From contig JADYYF010000075.1 of NCBI GenBank assembly GCA_020853795.1, positions 1-36,025 of the forward strand: a stretch of DNA of 36,025 bases, read 5' to 3'. Shown here piece after piece: positions 23,380-32,808 of the stretch (the first letter of the stretch is position 1; each line of letters opens with the position of its first letter). Position numbers and translations under genes: made by a program. The notes under the pieces were generated by a model. The model searched no databases and was not told where the DNA came from. It saw only the letters and a program-made list of their open reading frames with translations. This DNA comes from Candidatus Zixiibacteriota bacterium. Its GTDB lineage: Bacteria; Zixibacteria; MSB-5A5; CAIYYT01.

Positions 23380-24570
23380 ATGAGTTTTACCGGCAATCTC
23401 CAAACGGTGGCGTTTCCCGATTTGCTCCAGTTGTTCTCTGCGGGCAAGAAAACCGGCACCGTAACCATCATTCGCGGCAATATCCGCAAAGAGATTGTCT
23501 TCAAGGAAGGCAACATCATCAGCGCCAGCTCGCAGGATGCGGAAGAGGACTACCTCGGCCAAATCGTGCTCAAGAGCGGCCGCATCACCAAGACTGACCT
23601 CCAGCGCGCCGTCTATATGCACAAGACGTCGGGCAAGAAGATCGGCCAAGTCCTGGTTGAGATGAAGCTGCTGAACCGCGAAGAACTCGGCCTCCTTCTC
23701 AAACAGCAGGTGGAAGAGATCATCTACAACCTTTTCAGTTGGAAAGAGGGCGAGTTCATTTTTAAGGAAGGCCAGCTGCCCGCCTCGCGCGAAGGTCTCG
23801 TTGAACTGAACACCATGAACATCATCATGGAAGGCACGCGCCGCATCGACGAGTGGGTCGAAATCCAGAAGGTGATGCCATCCGACCACCAGATTCTACG
23901 TGTCGCCGGTACGCCGCAGATCAAGTCCGACGAAGTCACCATCTCGCTCGACGAATTCCGCGTCCTGACTTTGATCGACGGCACCCGTACCGTGCAGGAC
24001 ATCCTCTCGCAGTCGCCGCTCGGCGATTTCGCCACCTCGCGCGCCGTCTATAAGCTCCTGCTCGGCAAGCTGGTGGAAGTCGCCGGCGCCAAGGAAGCGG
24101 AAGTGGCCGACCCGCGCGAAGAGGACTCGCTCTTCTGGCTGTTGTTGCGCGTCTACGCCGCCGCGTTCAGCACCGTCCAGCGTACGCTCGAAAAGAAACT
24201 CGGCACCGAGAACGAGAAGGTGCAGGTGACCCTCGCCAATTTCCGCAAGGGCATCTGGCAGTACTTCAACGGTGTCAGTCACGCCGATTTCCCGACGAAT
24301 TTCGAAGCCCTCAAACGCGCGCTGGCCAAGACACCGAAGGAAACCCGCACGCTGAAACTGATCAGCGGCTTGAACCAGATTCTCGAAGAACAGCTCGCCT
24401 ACGTCTACAACTACCTCGGCATCGAAATCCGCAAGCAGGTCGCGGCCGATATCAAGAAGGAAATCGCCCTGCCGCTGGCCGAGCGCCGCGAAATCGACAA
24501 GAAGTACGACGTCGGCAACGAACTGTACCGGATCCTGAAGGAAGTGAAAGTGACCAAGGAGGTCCTGTGA
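23380..24570 (+). CDS. DUF4388 (PatA-type) domain protein, first gene of the Mgl/pilus cluster
   Basis: 396 residues. The N-terminus (GNLQTVAFPDLLQLFSAGKK, then TGTVTI and EIVFKEGNIISASS) is the DUF4388 domain, found in bacterial signalling proteins, often with response-regulator or GTPase modules. Residues 70-140 form a second unit (KKIGQVLVEMKLLNREELGL, then LFSWKEGEFIFKEG). The rest is helical with EISLDEFRVLTLIDG-like winged segments and a charged C-terminal part. It has no membrane helix. It opens a run of ten genes in one direction with gaps of at most 42 bp, ending with pilC. DUF4388 proteins are plausible partners of Mgl-type GTPases, but the function here is inferred from context. 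The start at 23380 (ATG) lacks a strong ribosome site. Confidence 0.8.
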   Translation: MSFTGNLQTVAFPDLLQLFSAGKKTGTVTIIRGNIRKEIVFKEGNIISASSQDAEEDYLGQIVLKSGRITKTDLQRAVYMHKTSGKKIGQVLVEMKLLNREELGLLLKQQVEEIIYNLFSWKEGEFIFKEGQLPASREGLVELNTMNIIMEGTRRIDEWVEIQKVMPSDHQILRVAGTPQIKSDEVTISLDEFRVLTLIDGTRTVQDILSQSPLGDFATSRAVYKLLLGKLVEVAGAKEAEVADPREEDSLFWLLLRVYAAAFSTVQRTLEKKLGTENEKVQVTLANFRKGIWQYFNGVSHADFPTNFEALKRALAKTPKETRTLKLISGLNQILEEQLAYVYNYLGIEIRKQVAADIKKEIALPLAERREIDKKYDVGNELYRILKEVKVTKEVL

Positions 24571-24944
24571 TGCGCCTGAACCACACGGCCGGGCTGAGCC
24601 TGCTCGCCCTCGTGATCTTGCCCTTCACCGGCGCGGCGGCGCAGACCGCTCCCGGCGAGTCCTCGGCGGTTGCCGTGGCGGTGGATATTCTGCTGCTGAT
24701 CGCCGGGTTGCTCTGCTTCTCGATGTGCATGAAGATTTTCGCCCTGCTGAAAGGCGGGGAATTGTCGCCCGGCTGGCAGTTGCTGTCGGTCTCGTTCCTG
24801 ATCTTCTCGATCGGCCAGGCCCTCAGCATCTCGCTCGAACTCGACTTCTTGTCGCTGCCCCAGGGCGCCGTCAGTGCGCTGCAGGTGCTGGCCCTGTTTA
24901 TGATCGTGATGGGCGTCGCCCGCATCAAGAAGAGTTTGACCTAA
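24570..24944 (+). CDS. Small membrane protein of unknown function
   Basis: 124 residues. The ATG at 24570 shares its first base with the upstream TGA stop, so translation is coupled; AAGGAGG lies 6 bases before. A signal-peptide-like first helix (about 5-24, ending GAAAQT) is followed by three membrane helices (about 35-56, 68-87 and 97-115) and the basic end KKSLT. No family is recognised. Its place between the DUF4388 and TPR-roadblock genes suggests it is a membrane partner of the Mgl/roadblock module, but this is only inference from position. Confidence 0.72.
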   Translation: MRLNHTAGLSLLALVILPFTGAAAQTAPGESSAVAVAVDILLLIAGLLCFSMCMKIFALLKGGELSPGWQLLSVSFLIFSIGQALSISLELDFLSLPQGAVSALQVLALFMIVMGVARIKKSLT

Positions 24945-24965
24945 CCCCAATCCGTGAAGGTCTCT

Positions 24966-25832
24966 ATGATGGAATCAGCAAGTCTGGCAGAGCGGATCGA
25001 AAAGTGCGAGCGGATTCTCAAGGAGAATTCGAACTCCCAGGTGTTCGCTGCGCTCGCCGACGCTTACCGGGCTAACGGCGATCTCGACCAGGCGTTCCGC
25101 GTCTGTCGGCAAGGCCTGCGCGTCCATCCGACTTATGGGCCCGGCCACCTGGTGATGGCTCGCATCAGCTTCGAGCGCAAAATGTTCGATTGGGCCGAAC
25201 AGGAACTGGCCGAAGCCGTCGCCCTCGACGGCGAAACCCGCGCTACCTCGCAACTCCGCGTCGAAATCCAGATCGCCAAAAGCAACTTCGGCGAAGCGGA
25301 ATTGGAGATCAAGAAACTCCGTGCCACCGGCACGAACCCGCTCCTGATTCAGGACCTGCAGCAGCGCCTGGAAAAAGCCAAGAAGGAAGCGCGCCGCCGC
25401 CGCAACGAGCAGGCGCCCGCCGTCGGCTTTGCCGCCCCGACCTCCTCGCTGCCGCCGTCGCCGCCGACCAAAGTGCAGGAACCGCCGCTGACCTTAAGCC
25501 AGATGATGGATTGTGTCAGCGACTTCCCCAATGTCACCAGCGTCGTCTGCGCCAATCACGACGGCACTGCCGTCGATCACCGCGGCGCGCCGGCGCAGTC
25601 CCCCGGGGAAATCGCCGCCTTCGGCATCGAAATGTGCCGCAATACGCAGACCGACGGCGCCCGGCAGGTGCTGGGCGAAGCTCAACAAATCGTCGTGGAA
25701 ACTCAGGACGCCACCATCGTGATCGTGCGCCTCAGCCGGTACGATCTCGTCCTGATGTGTGATAAGGATGTCAACCTGGGCTCGATGCGTCTCAAGCTGG
25801 ATGAGATCATCGACCGCCTCCGGATTGAATAG
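24966..25832 (+). CDS. TPR protein with C-terminal roadblock/LC7 domain
   Basis: 288 residues. Residues about 10-120 hold three TPR-like helical hairpins (VFAALADAYRANGDLDQAF, GHLVMARISFERKMFDWAE, LRVEIQIAKSNFGEAELE). A charged helix and a Pro-rich linker (about 150-172) follow. Residues about 175-285 resemble a roadblock/LC7 domain: VTSVVCANHDGTAVDHRG, then IVVETQDATIVIVRLSRYDL and a final LDEIIDRL helix. Roadblock domains dimerise and bind small Ras-like GTPases in bacteria and eukaryotes. The ATG at 24966 is taken with GAAGG just upstream; an adjacent ATG at 24969 is also possible. It sits four genes before mglA and may act as a scaffold for it. Confidence 0.8.
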   Translation: MMESASLAERIEKCERILKENSNSQVFAALADAYRANGDLDQAFRVCRQGLRVHPTYGPGHLVMARISFERKMFDWAEQELAEAVALDGETRATSQLRVEIQIAKSNFGEAELEIKKLRATGTNPLLIQDLQQRLEKAKKEARRRRNEQAPAVGFAAPTSSLPPSPPTKVQEPPLTLSQMMDCVSDFPNVTSVVCANHDGTAVDHRGAPAQSPGEIAAFGIEMCRNTQTDGARQVLGEAQQIVVETQDATIVIVRLSRYDLVLMCDKDVNLGSMRLKLDEIIDRLRIE

Positions 25833-25847
25833 AGTTGAGAGGATGCT

Positions 25848-26798
25848 ATGGCTTTGACGATCAGGGATGTTCGGCACTTGGTTCTGTTCCTGCTGATTCT
25901 CGCGGCACTGCCGATGCTGGTCTATCCCAATACCCTCGGCTTCGGGATTGGGTTGACCGGTTGGTCTTACGTCGCCGGCGAGCTGCTGTTCTTTCTGGCG
26001 GTCAGCATGATCTTCAACCGCGATACCTCGCTCACCCGTGGCGCTGCCGCCGCCGTCTTAATCTGGGCCGGCCGCATCGCCATGTCCGGCGTCTTCTGCC
26101 TCTTCTTGATGGGCATGGAGCGCGTGGCGCCGGCCGCCGCTTGGAGCGATGCGTATCTCGAATTTCCGCCGGCCGTCTACCTGTTTACACTCACCGCTCC
26201 GTTTGTCTTCAACTCGACCGTGAGGTCCATCATGGCTAAAAAACGCCGCGTCCGCAAGCACACCAGCGAACGCATCATCATCGACGGCGCCGCGCGCGCC
26301 ACGACGATGACGACGCCGTCCGCCCCGGTGCCGCGCGACTATTCCGTCACCGCCGTACCGCAACCGCGACCGACGGCGGAATTCCTCGAACGCACGTTCC
26401 AGCACGCCGTCCAGCACGTCGGCGAATATTCCGGCGTCCTCTGCGCCATGCTGATCGACGGGGAGGGCCTGCCGGTTGCCGGCTGGAGCCGCGGCCGCTA
26501 TGACCAGGAAATGTGGAGCGCGCTCGCGCGCAAAATCGTCGACGATGTCAACCGCACCTGCGCCCAGGGCGGCACCGTCCATCCCCAAACCCTCGAGTTC
26601 AAAACCGGCCAGGAGCGCTTCTATCTCCAACGCGTCGCCGATATGTGGCTCCTCTCCATCGCTGACGCCGCCTCGGACGAACTCGAAAAAATCCGCGTGC
26701 ACCAGGCGGTCGATATGGTGCTGCGCCATCTTCAGGATCGTTACAGAAATCTCTATATGAGCGAAGCAGGGAGAAGTTATGCGGGAAGTACTGTCTGA
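25848..26798 (+). CDS. Membrane protein: four helices plus cytoplasmic roadblock-like domain
   Basis: 316 residues. Four hydrophobic segments at about 9-26, 37-56, 64-90 and 104-124 are followed by a basic stretch (KKRRVRKH, about 130), which by the positive-inside rule puts the C-terminal part in the cytoplasm. After a low-complexity linker (about 147-180), residues about 182-305 form a roadblock-like alpha/beta domain: YSGVLCAMLIDGEGLPVAGW, RFYLQRVADMWLLSIAD and a final helix. This would bring a GTPase-binding domain to the inner membrane. The start has GAGAGGA upstream, 15 bp after the TPR-roadblock gene. Its 3' end overlaps the next gene by 20 bp. I know no named family with this layout. 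Confidence 0.72.
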   Translation: MALTIRDVRHLVLFLLILAALPMLVYPNTLGFGIGLTGWSYVAGELLFFLAVSMIFNRDTSLTRGAAAAVLIWAGRIAMSGVFCLFLMGMERVAPAAAWSDAYLEFPPAVYLFTLTAPFVFNSTVRSIMAKKRRVRKHTSERIIIDGAARATTMTTPSAPVPRDYSVTAVPQPRPTAEFLERTFQHAVQHVGEYSGVLCAMLIDGEGLPVAGWSRGRYDQEMWSALARKIVDDVNRTCAQGGTVHPQTLEFKTGQERFYLQRVADMWLLSIADAASDELEKIRVHQAVDMVLRHLQDRYRNLYMSEAGRSYAGSTV

Positions 26799-27114
26799 AC
26801 TGAATAAGACCTCCGGGATCACCGGCAGCATGCTCGTCGGGCACGACGGCATCGTCATCGCCGCCGATCTCAACAGCAAATTCGACAACGAAACCATCGG
26901 CGCCCTGGCCGGGTCGATCAGTTCCACCGTGGCCAAGAGCCTCGAACGGCTCCAGCAGACGCCGCTGAAACAACTGACCATCGAAGCGGATGAGGCCAAA
27001 ATGTTCATCGCGGCCACCCCGGTCGGCTATCTCGTAGTGACCGCCGAACCGCGCGTCAACATCGGTCTCGTTCGTCTCGAAATCAAGAATGCGATCACGC
27101 AGATCAGTCTGTAA
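26779..27114 (+). CDS. Stand-alone roadblock/LC7 domain protein
   Basis: 111 residues, essentially one roadblock/LC7 domain. ITGSMLVGHDGIVIAADLNS gives the two strands and turn of the fold, followed by a helix with GALAGSISSTVAKSLERL, then LTIEADEAKMFIAATP and GYLVVTAEPRVNIGLVRLEI. Such proteins form homodimers and bind Ras-like GTPases. The start lies inside the preceding gene (20-bp overlap) with AGGGAGAAG upstream, so the two are translationally coupled. mglA follows after 31 bp. It is shorter than the MglB at 28238 and lacks its C-terminal tail, so it may be a heterodimer partner or a separate regulator. Confidence 0.88.
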   Translation: MREVLSELNKTSGITGSMLVGHDGIVIAADLNSKFDNETIGALAGSISSTVAKSLERLQQTPLKQLTIEADEAKMFIAATPVGYLVVTAEPRVNIGLVRLEIKNAITQISL

Positions 27115-27145: not shown

Positions 27146-28222
27146 ATGGTATCAATCAACTACGCGAGCCGGGAAGTCAGCTGCAAGATTGTCTACTACG
27201 GCCCCGGCTTGTCGGGCAAGACGACCAACCTGCAATATGTCCACGCCAAGGTGCCGAAGAAAACCCGCGGCGATCTCATCAGTCTGGCCACGGATGCCGA
27301 TCGCACGCTCTATTTCGACTTTCTCCCGATCAACATCGGCGCCATTAACGGCTTCGCCACCAAGTTCCAGCTCTATACCGTGCCGGGACAAGTCTTCTAT
27401 AACGCGACCCGCAAGCTCGTGCTCCGCGGCGTCGACGGCGTCGTCTTCGTCGCCGATTCCCAGCGCTCCAAGAAAGACGAGAACATCGAATCGCTGAATA
27501 ACCTCAAGGAGAACCTCGTCGAATACGGCTACGACCTCAACACCTTGCCGATCGTGCTCCAGTACAACAAGCGCGATTTGCCGGAGGTGATGTCGGTCGC
27601 CGAACTGCAGGCCGATCTCAACTGGAATAACCTGCCGTTCTTCGAGGCCTCCGCCGTTAAGGGTGTCGGCGTCTTCGATACGCTGAAACTGATTACCAAG
27701 CTGGTGCTCAATAAAGCCAAGAAGGGCGATGACTCGTCCACCGCCGGCGCCGAGGATGCCGAACCTGCGACCGCCTATCCGGCCGGCCCGCAGTCGTCCG
27801 GCCCGCCATCACCGGCCGCCCCGGAGCCGGAACCGGCCTACGAACGCGTCGCCGCAACGGCCGTCGCGCCCCCCGCGACCGAAACGGTGCCGCGCCGCGT
27901 TGAGGTGCAGGCACCGCCCGAAGAGGAAGAGTGGGCCCTGGCGCGCCCGGCGGCGACCGCCGCTGCGGCAGTTGCGCCCAAGCCGCACAAGCCGACCATC
28001 GCGGAAATCGAATCGCATCTGCAGCCCATCGGCAATGACGATTTCAACGCCTTGAAAATGGATAAACCCGCGGCTGCCAGAGCTGCCGCGGAAGCGCCTG
28101 CGACCGACTACGCCGAAACCTTCGAGGTGCCCAAGGTCGTCGGCATGCAGCGCAGCACCCGCGTGAAAAAGAAAAAGAAAGTATTCTTCTTATTCCGCTG
28201 GTTCAGCCGGGATAAGGATTAG
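27146..28222 (+). CDS. mglA: MglA-type Ras-like GTPase with long C-terminal tail
   Basis: 358 residues; typical MglA has about 195. Residues 1-194 match Myxococcus MglA closely: P-loop GPGLSGKTTN (19-28), the intrinsic arginine finger Arg53 in DADRTL, TVPGQ (78-82, with the unusual Thr78 and Gln82), VVFVADSQ, NKRD (141-144) and SAVKG (169-173). MglA-GTP sets the leading pole and drives pilus-based and gliding motility; MglB acts as its GAP. Residues about 195-335 form an Ala/Pro/Glu-rich tail with a short conserved-looking helix (PTIAEIESHLQPIGNDDF). The end has five lysines (341-345), then VFFLFRWF and SRDKD, a possible membrane anchor like the polybasic tails of eukaryotic Ras. The mglB gene follows after 15 bp; in Myxococcus the order is reversed. 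Confidence 0.93.
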   Translation: MVSINYASREVSCKIVYYGPGLSGKTTNLQYVHAKVPKKTRGDLISLATDADRTLYFDFLPINIGAINGFATKFQLYTVPGQVFYNATRKLVLRGVDGVVFVADSQRSKKDENIESLNNLKENLVEYGYDLNTLPIVLQYNKRDLPEVMSVAELQADLNWNNLPFFEASAVKGVGVFDTLKLITKLVLNKAKKGDDSSTAGAEDAEPATAYPAGPQSSGPPSPAAPEPEPAYERVAATAVAPPATETVPRRVEVQAPPEEEEWALARPAATAAAAVAPKPHKPTIAEIESHLQPIGNDDFNALKMDKPAAARAAAEAPATDYAETFEVPKVVGMQRSTRVKKKKKVFFLFRWFSRDKD

Positions 28223-28237: not shown

Positions 28238-28726
28238 GTGGCTGGCGACAAACTCATTGTCTACTGGGACGACACCGAGAAAATCGATGCGGTGATGACC
28301 CGGCTTCTGAAAGGTTCGGAAGCTAAGTGCGCCCTTCTGGTCGATAAGGATGGTCATCTTATCGCCCGACACGGCTTCACCCAATCCCTCGACACCACCG
28401 CGCTCTCGGCGCTCATGGCGGGCAGCTTTGCCTCCACCGCCGAAATCGCCAAGCTGGTGGGTGAACCGGAATTCTCCGTCCTCTTCCACCAGGGACGCAA
28501 AGACCATATTCACATGGGCATCGTCGGCGACCGCTCGATTTTGGCGGTCATCTTCGACGATCGCACCACCATCGGCATGGTTCGGCTCTACGCCAAGGAA
28601 GCGGCCGAAGAATTGCAGAAAATCTTCGAAACCGTCCTGCGCAAGGTCAACAGCACCGACCAGGGCCTGTCCGAAGAATTCACCGCCTCGGCGGAAAATA
28701 AACTGGAGGATATCTTCCGCGAATAG
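28238..28726 (+). CDS. mglB: MglB, roadblock-type GTPase-activating partner of MglA
   Basis: 162 residues, close to the 159 of Myxococcus MglB and similar throughout: LLVDKDGHLIARHG, SLDTTALSALMAGSFAST, IAKLVGEPEFSVLFHQG, then ILAVIFDDRTTIGMVRLYAK. The C-terminal tail ends in ENKLEDIFRE, matching the short acidic end helix of MglB proteins, which in Myxococcus affects nucleotide exchange on MglA. The start codon is GTG at 28238, supported by AGGAGG (28225-28230) 7 bases away. It follows mglA by 15 bp and precedes pilB by 38 bp. Confidence 0.92.
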   Translation: MAGDKLIVYWDDTEKIDAVMTRLLKGSEAKCALLVDKDGHLIARHGFTQSLDTTALSALMAGSFASTAEIAKLVGEPEFSVLFHQGRKDHIHMGIVGDRSILAVIFDDRTTIGMVRLYAKEAAEELQKIFETVLRKVNSTDQGLSEEFTASAENKLEDIFRE

Positions 28727-28764: not shown

Positions 28765-30462
28765 ATGCCGAGCTCTAAAGAATTAGGGACAATGCTCGTC
28801 GACGCCGGCAAGATCACCGGCGACCAGCTCACCAAGGCCCTCGCCCTGGTGGAGCAGGGCAAGGGCCGCATCGAACAGGTCCTCGTGCAGATCGGCGCTG
28901 TGCCGGATGAAGAAGATATCACCAACTTCATCGGCAAACAGCTCAACATCGGCGCGATCCGCCTCTCCGATCTCGAGCTCAATCCCGATATCGTCAAGCT
29001 GATCCCCAACGACATTGCCCGCAAGTTCAATGTCATTGCGGTCAGCAAACTCGGCAAAACCCTGGTCGTCGCAATCAGCGATCCCAACAATATCTATGTG
29101 CTCGATGCGATCAAATTCATCACCGGCTGCACCGTGCAACCGGTTATCTCGCCCGAACCCGCCATCCAGAAGGCGGTCGAGCACTACTATTCCAATTCCT
29201 CGCAGTACACCGAAATTCTCAAGGGCCTCGAAGATTCCGAAATCGAGGTCATTACCGCGGGCGACGATGATATCAACGTCATGGAGCTGCAATCGGCGGT
29301 GCAGGACAAACCGCTGGTCAAGCTCGTCGACTCGATTATCGCCGAAGCCGTCCGCAAGGGCGCCTCGGATATTCACATCGAAACCTATGAGAAGCGGCTG
29401 CGCCTGCGCTACCGCATCGACGGCGATTTGATCGAAATGGCGCCGCTCCCCTTCAAGTACCGCGCGGCCATCGTCAGCCGCGTCAAGATCATGGCCGATC
29501 TCGATATTTCCGAGCGCCGTTTACCCCAGGACGGACGCATCAAAATCAAAATCAGCGACCGCGCGATTGACCTCCGCGTATCGGTCCTGCCGACCATCTT
29601 CGGCGAAAAAGTCGTGATGCGTATTCTCGACCCGAAAGCCCTGATGCACGATCTCACCCATCTCGGCTTCCCGGAACTCTCGCTCAAGAAATTCGACAAG
29701 GCGATTCACCTGCCGTACGGCATTATCCTCGTCACCGGCCCGACCGGTTCCGGTAAGACGACGACCCTGTACTCGGCGCTCAAGGCAATCAACACCGTCG
29801 ACGTCAACATCATGACCGCCGAAGACCCGGTCGAATTCAACTTCGAAGGCATCAACCAGGTCGCGGTCAAGCCCGATATCGGCCTGACCTTCGCCGCCGC
29901 GCTCCGGTCGTTCCTGCGCCAGGACCCGGATATCGTCATGGTCGGCGAAATCCGCGACGGCGAAACCGCCGAAATCGCCATCCGCGCTTCGCTCACCGGG
30001 CACCTGGTTTTCAGCACCCTGCACACGAACGATGCGCCCTCGTCGATCAACCGTCTGATCGACATGGGCATTCCCAATTACCTCGTCGCTTCTGCCGCCA
30101 AGTTGATCATGGCCCAGCGTATGGTGCGCAAGATCTGTAAGCGCTGTCGCGAAGAGGTCAAGACTGAATCGGAAGTCCTCTTGCGCCTGGGTGTGCCCGA
30201 GGCCGAAATCAAGGGCTTCAAGGTCTACGAGGGCAAAGGCTGCTCCGAATGCAACAACACCGGTCTCGCCGGACGAACCGGATTATTCGAAGTGATGGAA
30301 ATCACTCCCGAAGTCGAGCGCCTCATCCTCGAGAATGCGCCGACCCCGGACATTCAGGCCCAGGCCATCAAGGAAGGCATGCATACGCTGCGCATGGCCG
30401 GCATCGAAAAAGTTAAACTCGGCGTCACGACCATCGAACAGGTCCTGGGCGAGACGTCATAG
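28765..30462 (+). CDS. pilB: Type IV pilus extension ATPase
   Basis: 565 residues, normal for PilB/GspE. PilB powers pilus assembly at the inner membrane. Residues 1-150 form the N-terminal GspE/MshEN-type domain (LVDAGKITGDQLTKAL, LNIGAIRLSDLELNPD). The Walker A motif GPTGSGKTTT begins at residue 325, followed by the Asp box (AEDPVEFN), Walker B (DPDIVMVGEIRD) and the His box (GHLVFSTLHTND). A tetracysteine zinc site has two CxxC pairs (ICKRCREE and GCSECNNTG), typical of extension and not retraction ATPases. The short distance to mglB (38 bp) suggests co-transcription with the Mgl module. AGGAAGG lies before the start. Confidence 0.95.
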   Translation: MPSSKELGTMLVDAGKITGDQLTKALALVEQGKGRIEQVLVQIGAVPDEEDITNFIGKQLNIGAIRLSDLELNPDIVKLIPNDIARKFNVIAVSKLGKTLVVAISDPNNIYVLDAIKFITGCTVQPVISPEPAIQKAVEHYYSNSSQYTEILKGLEDSEIEVITAGDDDINVMELQSAVQDKPLVKLVDSIIAEAVRKGASDIHIETYEKRLRLRYRIDGDLIEMAPLPFKYRAAIVSRVKIMADLDISERRLPQDGRIKIKISDRAIDLRVSVLPTIFGEKVVMRILDPKALMHDLTHLGFPELSLKKFDKAIHLPYGIILVTGPTGSGKTTTLYSALKAINTVDVNIMTAEDPVEFNFEGINQVAVKPDIGLTFAAALRSFLRQDPDIVMVGEIRDGETAEIAIRASLTGHLVFSTLHTNDAPSSINRLIDMGIPNYLVASAAKLIMAQRMVRKICKRCREEVKTESEVLLRLGVPEAEIKGFKVYEGKGCSECNNTGLAGRTGLFEVMEITPEVERLILENAPTPDIQAQAIKEGMHTLRMAGIEKVKLGVTTIEQVLGETS

Positions 30463-30504
30463 CGCCGCTGACACGGAAAGAGATTCAGAACTGAGGATAT
30501 TGCC

Positions 30505-31587
30505 ATGATTAACTTGCGCGAATTGCTCGAGATCCTGCTCGAACGGAAAGGCTCCGACCTGCACCTGTCGGTCGGCTCGCCGCCCCAGGTCCGCGTCGAC
30601 GGCCGCCTGATTCCACTCGACATGGACGTGCTGACGCCGGAAACCACCAAGAAGCTGGCCTACAGCATGATGTCCGAAAAGCAGAAACAGCGCTTCGAGG
30701 AAAACAACGAACTCGATATGTCGTTCGGCATCGAGAATATGAGCCGCTTCCGCGTCAACGTCTATATGCAGCGCGGCAATATCTCCGTCGCCCTGCGCCA
30801 GATTCCGTTCAAGGTGCCGACCTTCGAAGAACTCGGCATCGACAAAACCATCGTTGAATTCGCCAACGTTCCCAAAGGCCTTGTCCTGATCACCGGGCCG
30901 ACCGGTTCCGGTAAGTCGACGACCCTGGCGGCGCTGATCGACAAGATCAATCGCGAACGCAAGGCGCATATCCTGACCGTCGAAGATCCGATCGAATACT
31001 TGCACCGCCACCAAAGTTGTCTGGTCAACCAGCGCGAAGTCGGTGCCGATACCCGCTCCTTTGCGGCGGCGCTCAAGTACGCGCTGCGGCAGGACCCCGA
31101 CGTTGTCCTGATCGGCGAAATGCGCGACCTCGAGACCGTGTCCGAGGCGCTCAACATTTCCGAGACCGGCCATCTGACCTTCGCCACCTTGCACACCAAC
31201 TCCTGCGCGGAAACCATCAACCGTGTCATCGACGTCTTCCCGGTTAACCAGCAGGAGCAGATTCGCGTGACGCTCTCCTTCGTGCTGCAAGGTGTCGTGT
31301 CGCAGCAGCTGGTGCCGCGCATCGGCGGCGGCCGCGTCCTGGCCACCGAAATCATGGTCTGCACGCCCGCCATCCGCGCCCTGATTCGCGACGATAAGAT
31401 TCACCAGATCTATAGCATGCTGCAATCCGGCCAGAAGTACGGCATGAAGACGATGAACATGTCGCTGGCCGAACTCTACCTGGCGCGTAAGATCACGATC
31501 GGCGAGGCGATGTCCCGTTCGTCCAACGTGCAGGAACTCAACGAAATCCTCTCGCGCGTGCAGACGGTCGCGGAAGTGCATCGTTAA
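30505..31587 (+). CDS. pilT: Type IV pilus retraction ATPase
   Basis: 360 residues, the usual PilT size. PilT depolymerises the pilus and gives twitching force. KGSDLHLSVGSPPQVRVDG is the N-terminal PAS-like domain. Walker A GPTGSGKSTT starts at residue 131, then VEDPIEYLH, QDPDVVLIGEMRD and GHLTFATLHTNS. The C-terminal AIRALIRDDKIHQI corresponds to the AIRNLIRE motif that marks retraction ATPases. There is no tetracysteine zinc site. It follows pilB by 42 bp with GAGGA before the start. Having both motors next to mglAB suggests direct control of extension versus retraction by the GTPase module. Confidence 0.95.
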   Translation: MINLRELLEILLERKGSDLHLSVGSPPQVRVDGRLIPLDMDVLTPETTKKLAYSMMSEKQKQRFEENNELDMSFGIENMSRFRVNVYMQRGNISVALRQIPFKVPTFEELGIDKTIVEFANVPKGLVLITGPTGSGKSTTLAALIDKINRERKAHILTVEDPIEYLHRHQSCLVNQREVGADTRSFAAALKYALRQDPDVVLIGEMRDLETVSEALNISETGHLTFATLHTNSCAETINRVIDVFPVNQQEQIRVTLSFVLQGVVSQQLVPRIGGGRVLATEIMVCTPAIRALIRDDKIHQIYSMLQSGQKYGMKTMNMSLAELYLARKITIGEAMSRSSNVQELNEILSRVQTVAEVHR

Positions 31588-31608
31588 CGAAGATAACTGG
31601 AGGTTGTT

Positions 31609-32808
31609 ATGCCGGTTTTTGAATACAAAGGCAAGACGGTCACCGGTTCGCAGGTCGAAGGCGAACTGAAAGTCAAAGACCGCGCCGAACTCGATCGCAT
31701 TCTGCGCCGCAACAAGATCCTGGTCGACAAGGTTTCCAAGAAGCCGTCGCAGATCCAGATCAAGATCGGCTCGGGCATTAAGAAAGTGCACATCTCCCGC
31801 TTCACGCGCCAGTTCGCGACCATGATCGGCGCCGGTCTCCCGATGGTGCAGTGCCTGGATATTCTCTCCAAGCAGATGGATTCCCAGGAATTCTGCAAGA
31901 TCATCGGCGACATCAAGGACGCCGTCTCATCCGGTTCGACGCTCTCGGAGGCGATGGGCAAGCATAAAAAGGTCTTCGACGAGCTCTACGTTAACATGGT
32001 CGAGGCCGGCGAAATGGGCGGCGCCCTCGACACGATTCTCGTCCGCCTCGCCAACTATCGCGAAAAAGCCGACGCGCTGACCCGCAAGGTCAAGGGCGCT
32101 CTGGTCTATCCGGCGATTGTGTCGCTGGTCGCGACCGGCGTGACGATCGCGATGTTGACCTTTATCGTGCCGATCTTCGCCAAGATGTTCGCCAATCTCG
32201 GCGCCGAGCTGCCCGGCCCGACCCAGTTCGTGCTCGGCATCTCGCATTTTTTGCAGAACTATTTCCTGGTGATCCTCGGCGCGCTGGTACTGCTCTTCGT
32301 CGGCTTCAAGATCATGATGCGCAACGAAGAAGGCCGCTTCCAGTTCGACAAGTTTATGCTCAGGACCCCGGTCTTCGGCGACCTGATCCGCAAATCCGCG
32401 GTTGCGCGCTTCACCCGCACCCTCGGCACGCTGATCCAGTCCGGCGTCACCATTCTCGACGCCCTCGAAATCACCGCCAAAACCGCGGGTAACAAGGTAC
32501 TCCAGCGGGCGATCAAGAAATCGGTGCTGTCGATCGCCGAAGGCGATACCATCACCAACCCGCTGAAGGAATCGGGCGTGTTTCCGCCGATGGTGATCCA
32601 GATGATTGGCGTCGGTGAAAAAACTGGCGGTCTCGACGAAATGCTGTCCAAGATCGCCGACTTCTACGATGAGGAAGTTGATGCGGCTGTCAGCGCCCTG
32701 ACCTCGATGATCGAACCGATCATCATCGTCTTTATGGGTATCGTGATCGGCGGCATCCTGATCGCCATGTACTTGCCGATGTTCGACATTATTGGCAAGA
32801 TCAACTAA
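31609..32808 (+). CDS. pilC: Type IV pilus inner-membrane platform protein
   Basis: 399 residues of the GspF/PilC family. PilC is the inner-membrane platform that couples PilB and PilT to pilin movement. The first about 60 residues are cytoplasmic (FEYKGKTVTGSQVEGELKV). Two homologous GspF domains follow: FTRQFATMIGAGLPMVQCLD with GEMGGALDTILVRLANY, and FTRTLGTLIQSGVTILDALE with GEKTGGLDEMLSKIADFYDEEVD. Three membrane helices lie at about 166-190, 215-237 and 368-393. GGAGG precedes the start, 21 bp after pilT. A strong hairpin follows 31 bp after the stop. No pilin gene is in the window, so major and minor pilins must be elsewhere. Confidence 0.95.
   Translation: MPVFEYKGKTVTGSQVEGELKVKDRAELDRILRRNKILVDKVSKKPSQIQIKIGSGIKKVHISRFTRQFATMIGAGLPMVQCLDILSKQMDSQEFCKIIGDIKDAVSSGSTLSEAMGKHKKVFDELYVNMVEAGEMGGALDTILVRLANYREKADALTRKVKGALVYPAIVSLVATGVTIAMLTFIVPIFAKMFANLGAELPGPTQFVLGISHFLQNYFLVILGALVLLFVGFKIMMRNEEGRFQFDKFMLRTPVFGDLIRKSAVARFTRTLGTLIQSGVTILDALEITAKTAGNKVLQRAIKKSVLSIAEGDTITNPLKESGVFPPMVIQMIGVGEKTGGLDEMLSKIADFYDEEVDAAVSALTSMIEPIIIVFMGIVIGGILIAMYLPMFDIIGKIN

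Follow-up and report, generated by a model that had tools for sequence, protein, structure and literature searches.

A four-helix membrane protein with a C-terminal roadblock domain, encoded with an MglA/MglB-type switch and type IV pilus motor genes in Zixibacteria

The window, which is the whole stretch of 36,025 nucleotides analysed here (contig JADYYF010000075.1 of a Candidatus Zixiibacteriota bacterium), carries genes in the order murJ, comEC, DUF4388 protein, small membrane protein, TPR-roadblock protein, 4TM-roadblock protein, small roadblock protein, MglA-type GTPase, MglB, pilB, pilT, pilC, pilS and pilR. The names murJ, comEC and those of the pil genes were assigned from the translations, presuming established family knowledge. 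The seven genes from the DUF4388 protein to MglB form a unit, flanked by comEC and by pilB-pilT-pilC-pilS. Four roadblock proteins and one GTPase are thus encoded in one operon, and one of these roadblock proteins has four predicted membrane helices. The roadblock domain is a fold by which Ras-like GTPases are handled. The features of the locus are the following.

23380–24570, + strand: DUF4388 protein with an MshEN-like c-di-GMP motif, opening the unit (Pfam DUF4388, 6.3e-34)
24567–24944, + strand: small membrane protein of the seven-gene unit, 125 aa (translation, locus comparison)
24954–25832, + strand: protein with TPR repeats and a C-terminal roadblock domain, 292 aa (TPR Pfam matches; hhalign)
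25848–26798, + strand: 4TM-roadblock protein, 316 aa, the subject of the analysis (open reading frame from ATG to stop, and translation)
25878–26216, + strand: predicted membrane domain of the 4TM-roadblock protein, with TM1 at about aa 11–26, TM2 at 39–56, TM3 at 66–89 and TM4 at 106–123 (hydropathy, positive-inside, alignment)
26223–26273, + strand: basic patch after TM4, predicted cytoplasmic, aa 126–142, including AKKRRVRKH (sequence)
26274–26372, + strand: unconserved, gap-rich linker, aa 143–175 (alignment)
26373–26777, + strand: roadblock/LC7 domain, aa ~176–310 (hhalign, PDB profile search, model, Foldseek)
26779–26798, + strand: overlap of 20 nt between the stop of the 4TM-roadblock gene and the start of the small roadblock gene (ORF coordinates)
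26779–27114, + strand: small stand-alone roadblock protein, 111 aa (Pfam Robl_LC7, E 4.2e-9)
27146–28222, + strand: MglA-type small GTPase, with a G domain at aa ~1–195, a long linker and a polybasic-aromatic C-terminus (Pfam, alignment)
28238–28726, + strand: MglB-type roadblock protein, 162 aa (Robl_LC7, 1.4e-12)
28765–32808, + strand: type IV pilus motors and platform, pilB (28765–30462), pilT (30505–31587) and pilC (31609–32808) (translations; identical order in the loci of relatives)

The open reading frame at 25848–26798 is a real gene, because orthologues align over the whole protein in 25 other genomes (18–59% identity) and 123 of the 132 genomes searched from the phylum, candidate division Zixibacteria, carry it. 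The closest named relative is from a Zixibacteria MAG, with 58% identity across the whole protein; the relatives encountered are metagenome assemblies. The order from comEC to pilS is retained in the loci fetched around 33 genes, as far as their contigs extend.

In the GTPase, the G domain is conserved, with P-loop, TVPGQ and NKRD motifs. It is followed by an extension of about 160 residues that ends in a polybasic-aromatic stretch (aa 335–358, window 28148–28219; STRVKKKKKVFFLFRWFSRDKD). Comparable ends rich in Lys/Arg and aromatic residues are present in nearly all relatives with a complete 3' end and likewise in another phylum (L099); judged by its composition, the tail is probably membrane-seeking or membrane-targeting. 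MglB matches the NCBIfam MglB model NF052242 with an E-value of 1.4e-25, under the cut-off of that model, and the DUF4388 protein matches NF053729 (2.9e-9, 36.6 bits) just under the cut-off of 38, with its MshEN-type c-di-GMP motif. The TPR-roadblock protein gives no Pfam Robl_LC7 match up to an E-value of 1 and only LAMTOR5 and MAPKK1_Int matches at 0.02–0.05; its C-terminus scores 99.2% in hhalign against the small roadblock family. The small membrane protein (24567–24944) is poorly conserved: BLAST finds it in 16 loci, other loci have membrane ORFs of similar size at the same place, and no Pfam family scores above its cut-off. Elsewhere in the same genome, a further roadblock domain is encoded (G000:C156:40933–41187; 29.3 bits, above the cut-off).

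In the 4TM-roadblock protein, three hydrophobic segments pass a Kyte-Doolittle scan at a threshold of 1.5, while in most orthologues four do. Over 28 aligned members, an average of 7.2 Lys and Arg residues lie on the predicted cytoplasmic side and 1.6 on the outside, with more inside than outside in 27 of the 28; an N-in/C-in topology is therefore predicted. The segment after TM4 has a mean of 3.6 Lys and Arg residues over the same members. The predicted periplasmic loops span only about 12 and 16 residues. Glu45 in TM2 and Arg76 in TM3 do not vary across the 28 rows of the alignment, one of which comes from a second phylum. A search of the PDB with the membrane domain retrieved no relative, and Pfam gave only weak, scattered matches (CHASE8, DUF2298 and others). 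Kinship with the neighbouring small membrane protein was considered and rejected (hhalign, 0.3%).

On its own, the window protein matches Pfam Robl_LC7 (PF03259) with an E-value of 0.003 and 17.7 bits, under the gathering cut-off of 23, and a phmmer search of the PDB with the single domain sequence gave nothing useful. Sixteen of 26 orthologues match the same family, the best at 2.6e-7; by sequence profile, Robl_LC7 membership holds for the 4TM-roadblock family but not for the window member taken alone. The orthologue profile scores 98.0% in hhalign against the TPR-roadblock C-terminus, 97.3% against the small roadblock protein and 77.5% against MglB, compared with 0.0–0.2% for control comparisons with five unrelated alignments. 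When a profile of 29 orthologues was used to search the PDB, roadblock/LC7 chains came out on top, with 7f8f at 3.2e-11 and Myxococcus xanthus MglB at 0.001–0.002.

A model of the domain was predicted with a pLDDT of 74.6 and a pTM of 0.69, its elements following the order helix-strand-strand-helix-three strands-helix; its alignment included the other roadblock proteins of the window, and these paralogue rows bias it towards a roadblock. A model from an orthologue-only alignment of two rows (pLDDT 44.4) was not usable. The assignment of the fold thus rests mainly on the profiles. With the former model, Foldseek retrieved LAMTOR2/p14 and the MglB proteins of M. xanthus and Thermus with a probability of 1.00 and TM-scores of 0.6–0.8; the top match is a chain of a LAMTOR-containing complex, and for MglB the TM-score reaches 0.80. 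As judged from profiles and prediction, the C-terminal domain is a genuine roadblock domain.

A sequence-only reading of the window had described four hydrophobic segments, then basic residues, a disordered linker and an LC7-like alpha/beta domain, in an architecture for which it knew no named family. The hydropathy, the AKKRRVRKH patch and the unconserved linker agree with this description. The resemblance to LC7, which had been set as a test, is borne out by the orthologue-only profiles, by the model with paralogue rows and by Foldseek. As to a named family, no entry of Pfam or NCBIfam covers the whole architecture, and the titles, abstracts and passages of open-licence literature that were searched contain no earlier description of a membrane-fused roadblock or of a Zixibacteria MglA.

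MglA was found in 119 of the 132 genomes. Both genes are present in 118, neither in eight, only the 4TM-roadblock gene in five and only mglA in one, an association for which the Fisher p of 6e-9 is merely indicative, the genomes being related. In 116 of the 118 genomes with both, mglA lies 329–444 bp downstream on the same contig and strand, a gap that just fits the small roadblock gene; the other two genomes have them on separate contigs. The expectation that orthologues adjoin mgl genes is thus upheld. The lone mglA-only match starts at contig base 1, and at least three of the five 4TM-roadblock-only genomes have partial matches or matches near contig base 1. Genomes without the 4TM-roadblock gene were also considered as counter-evidence to the linkage, which was rejected for four of them: in G003, G009 and G096 mglB-pilB lies at contig ends and in G004 mglA is cut at base 1, so these gaps are attributed to assembly breaks.

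A chance similarity, in which the C-terminal domain merely resembles a roadblock and has no part in GTPase control, would be in line with the score of the window protein under the Pfam gathering cut-off and with the low confidence of the two-row model. It is effectively refuted by the hhalign values of 97–98% over the controls, by the orthologue-only search of the PDB, by the model with its Foldseek matches and by the adjacency to mglA.

In one genome of family f3, comEC is followed directly by pilB (L118, G006:C30), and the seven genes from the DUF4388 protein to mglB are gone as one block, while pilB, pilT, pilC and pilS are retained. Because this genome lacks the entire block yet keeps its pilus genes, the unit is inherited whole and counts as an accessory of the pilus, outside the core machinery. 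The absence, by natural deletion or non-acquisition, marks the borders of the unit.

In the tree of roadblock domains, the 4TM-roadblock proteins form a clade of their own (support 99/97), apart from the MglB clade (100/100). MglB is a soluble, single-domain roadblock protein of 129–179 aa (PMC4316618), and the 4TM-roadblock protein, with 316 aa, four membrane helices and no NCBIfam match, does not fit this definition. Its identification as MglB was therefore rejected, given the separate clade and the presence of mglB itself at 28238–28726.

The junction between the 4TM-roadblock and small roadblock genes overlaps in 27 of 32 loci, by 8–29 nt, more often than any other junction measured; the roadblock and mglA genes overlap in none of 33 loci, and mglA and mglB in four of 31. 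Gene overlaps of this kind commonly accompany translational coupling that keeps the amounts of the encoded subunits matched. As their genes overlap most often, we infer that the 4TM-roadblock protein pairs with the small roadblock protein.

An alternative is an adaptor resembling MglC, whose roadblock domain would bind MglB or the small roadblock protein, never MglA, and would merely tether the GAP to the membrane. MglC of M. xanthus, a roadblock paralogue, does bind MglB by a face other than the one that binds MglA (PMC7949163), and the 4TM-roadblock domain is fast-evolving and separated from MglB in the tree. MglC is, however, a soluble homodimer, no sequence feature of the 4TM-roadblock protein points to MglB as its partner, and the gene overlap is with the small roadblock gene, not with mglB. 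We consider such an adaptor role improbable.

The membrane part is not universal. Families f10 and f14 have a soluble roadblock orthologue of 133–160 residues (L051, L058, L059, L060, L062), and these loci contain no separate membrane ORF alongside, apart from the usual small membrane protein. The two f10/f14 orthologues sampled in the tree nest inside the 4TM-roadblock clade with modest support, which suggests that these families lost the anchor. They offer a natural test of its purpose. TPR-roadblock/roadblock/mglA/mglB loci that lack a 4TM-roadblock gene occur in several other phyla; these loci, and the f10/f14 proteins without a membrane part, argue that the switch can do without anchoring. 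Near mglA-mglB-pilB-pilT-pilC in another phylum, there are four additional roadblock-like ORFs (L099:12368–15164), one of them a fusion of receiver, DUF4388-like and roadblock domains.

Among 386 genomes, the membrane domain is confined to Zixibacteria except for six of the 17 genomes of one other phylum. In this second phylum, it heads a protein of 537–825 aa with long acidic linkers (L095:9707–12082, L108:6047–8524, L109:2–2401, L110:1348–2961). These long proteins share a conserved domain (ISLRK.IE.N...NFELSIP...VNFMSSDQSGDLSE); the two that were tested gave no significant Pfam match. Beside the long protein lies a 4TM-roadblock ORF (313 aa in L095, assigned as a roadblock by a profile match of 5e-6) or a 1TM-roadblock ORF (200 aa in L109, assigned by a weak Pfam match of 0.069), followed by roadblock, mglA and mglB genes. 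We count this gene order, in which roadblock-mglA-mglB is again preceded by 4TM- or 1TM-roadblock ORFs and by a protein bearing a related membrane domain, in support of the preferred reading set out below. In L110, Glu45 and Arg76 are replaced together.

The same observations bear on whether the four-helix domain could be a receptor instead of an anchor. It would then sense a signal from the membrane or the envelope (such as pilus load, a lipid or contact with another membrane protein) via the buried Glu45-Arg76 pair and alter the GEF or GAP activity of the roadblock platform. The invariance of both residues across 28 rows, the second phylum included, exceeds the needs of a plain anchor; their joint replacement in L110 and the separate evolution of the membrane domain, which in the second phylum is joined to a protein of quite another kind, point the same way. 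Conserved buried charges may also serve helix packing or assembly, though, and the short periplasmic loops hold no ligand domain. With no relative of known function found for the membrane domain in Pfam or the PDB, a receptor role seems unlikely, if less so than the MglC-like one.

The 4TM-roadblock protein is encoded with an MglA-type GTPase and MglB. Our preferred reading, which we hold to be probable, is that it is an integral-membrane subunit of a pilus-dedicated MglA/MglB-type switch, which, in partnership with the small roadblock protein, keeps MglA and MglB on the inner membrane close to the pilus motor. Next to the established architecture and linkage to mglA, docking of the GTPase is a well-supported guess; the proximity to PilC is suggested by gene order. 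The predicted N-in/C-in membrane domain would put the roadblock domain in the cytoplasm, where it could pair with the small roadblock protein, the TPR-roadblock protein or both to form a membrane-fixed platform, similar in its logic to Ragulator. By recruiting the MglA-MglB complex to the inner membrane, this platform would let MglA-GTP act locally on PilB, PilT and PilC. The DUF4388 protein may provide a c-di-GMP input, and the polybasic tail of MglA may make it easier for the GTPase to reach the platform at the membrane. The GTPase may also not need the platform, as its basic tail might suffice to take it to the membrane.

The TPR-roadblock protein would be the obvious candidate for an effector arm, as SgmX is in Myxococcus. 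There, according to the cited passages, MglB acts as a GAP, and SgmX, a TPR protein bound by MglA-GTP, matters for type IV piliation and for placing PilB at the pole (PMC7519303); in Bdellovibrio, MglA is likewise described as binding a TPR protein, Bd2492 (PMC3983030). Both resemble the neighbouring TPR-roadblock protein, but the cited passages describe them without mention of a roadblock domain.

The MglA/MglB modules of M. xanthus and Thermus (MglB structures 6hjm, 6izw and 1j3w) similarly consist of a GTPase and a roadblock GAP tied to type IV pili. Their MglB is a soluble homodimer, whereas the Zixibacteria operon adds a roadblock in the membrane, a TPR-roadblock and a small roadblock protein; RomR, RomX and Frz genes were not noticed within this operon. 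MglC likewise adds a roadblock paralogue to an MglA/MglB system (PMC7949163), but is soluble and has no membrane domain. The Streptomyces conservons (CvnA-D) combine a roadblock protein, an MglA-type GTPase and a membrane protein in one operon as well (PMC4316618); there, however, the roadblock CvnB stands alone and a histidine kinase is the membrane component. Heteromeric roadblock complexes are a recurrent theme among GTPase regulators (PMC9481161). In the eukaryotic Ragulator (LAMTOR1-5), roadblock proteins likewise form part of a membrane-anchored platform for small GTPases, but p18/LAMTOR1 wraps the roadblock heterodimers and anchors them to the membrane (PMC5680233), and no four-helix domain is fused to a roadblock. 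The likeness is one of logic only. In Zixibacteria, too, several roadblock proteins are encoded with the GTPase, at least one of them predicted to be membrane-anchored. More tentatively, and with the odds rather against it, the 4TM-, small and TPR-roadblock proteins might form a Zixibacteria counterpart of Ragulator, a membrane-embedded scaffold that pins the polybasic-tailed GTPase to the inner membrane and switches the pilus motors, with the Glu-Arg pair as a signal receiver.

While the MglA/MglB switch is known, the membrane-fused roadblock architecture is new: it is phylum-wide in Zixibacteria and unnamed in the libraries searched. The roadblock proteins of MglA systems, as presented in the cited passages, are soluble and need others to reach the pole or the membrane. 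A roadblock welded to the membrane beside MglA and the pilus motors would explain, in a concrete and testable way, what can keep a Ras-like GTPase of bacteria at its target. It also suggests that bacteria, like eukaryotes, evolved membrane-anchored roadblock platforms for small GTPases.
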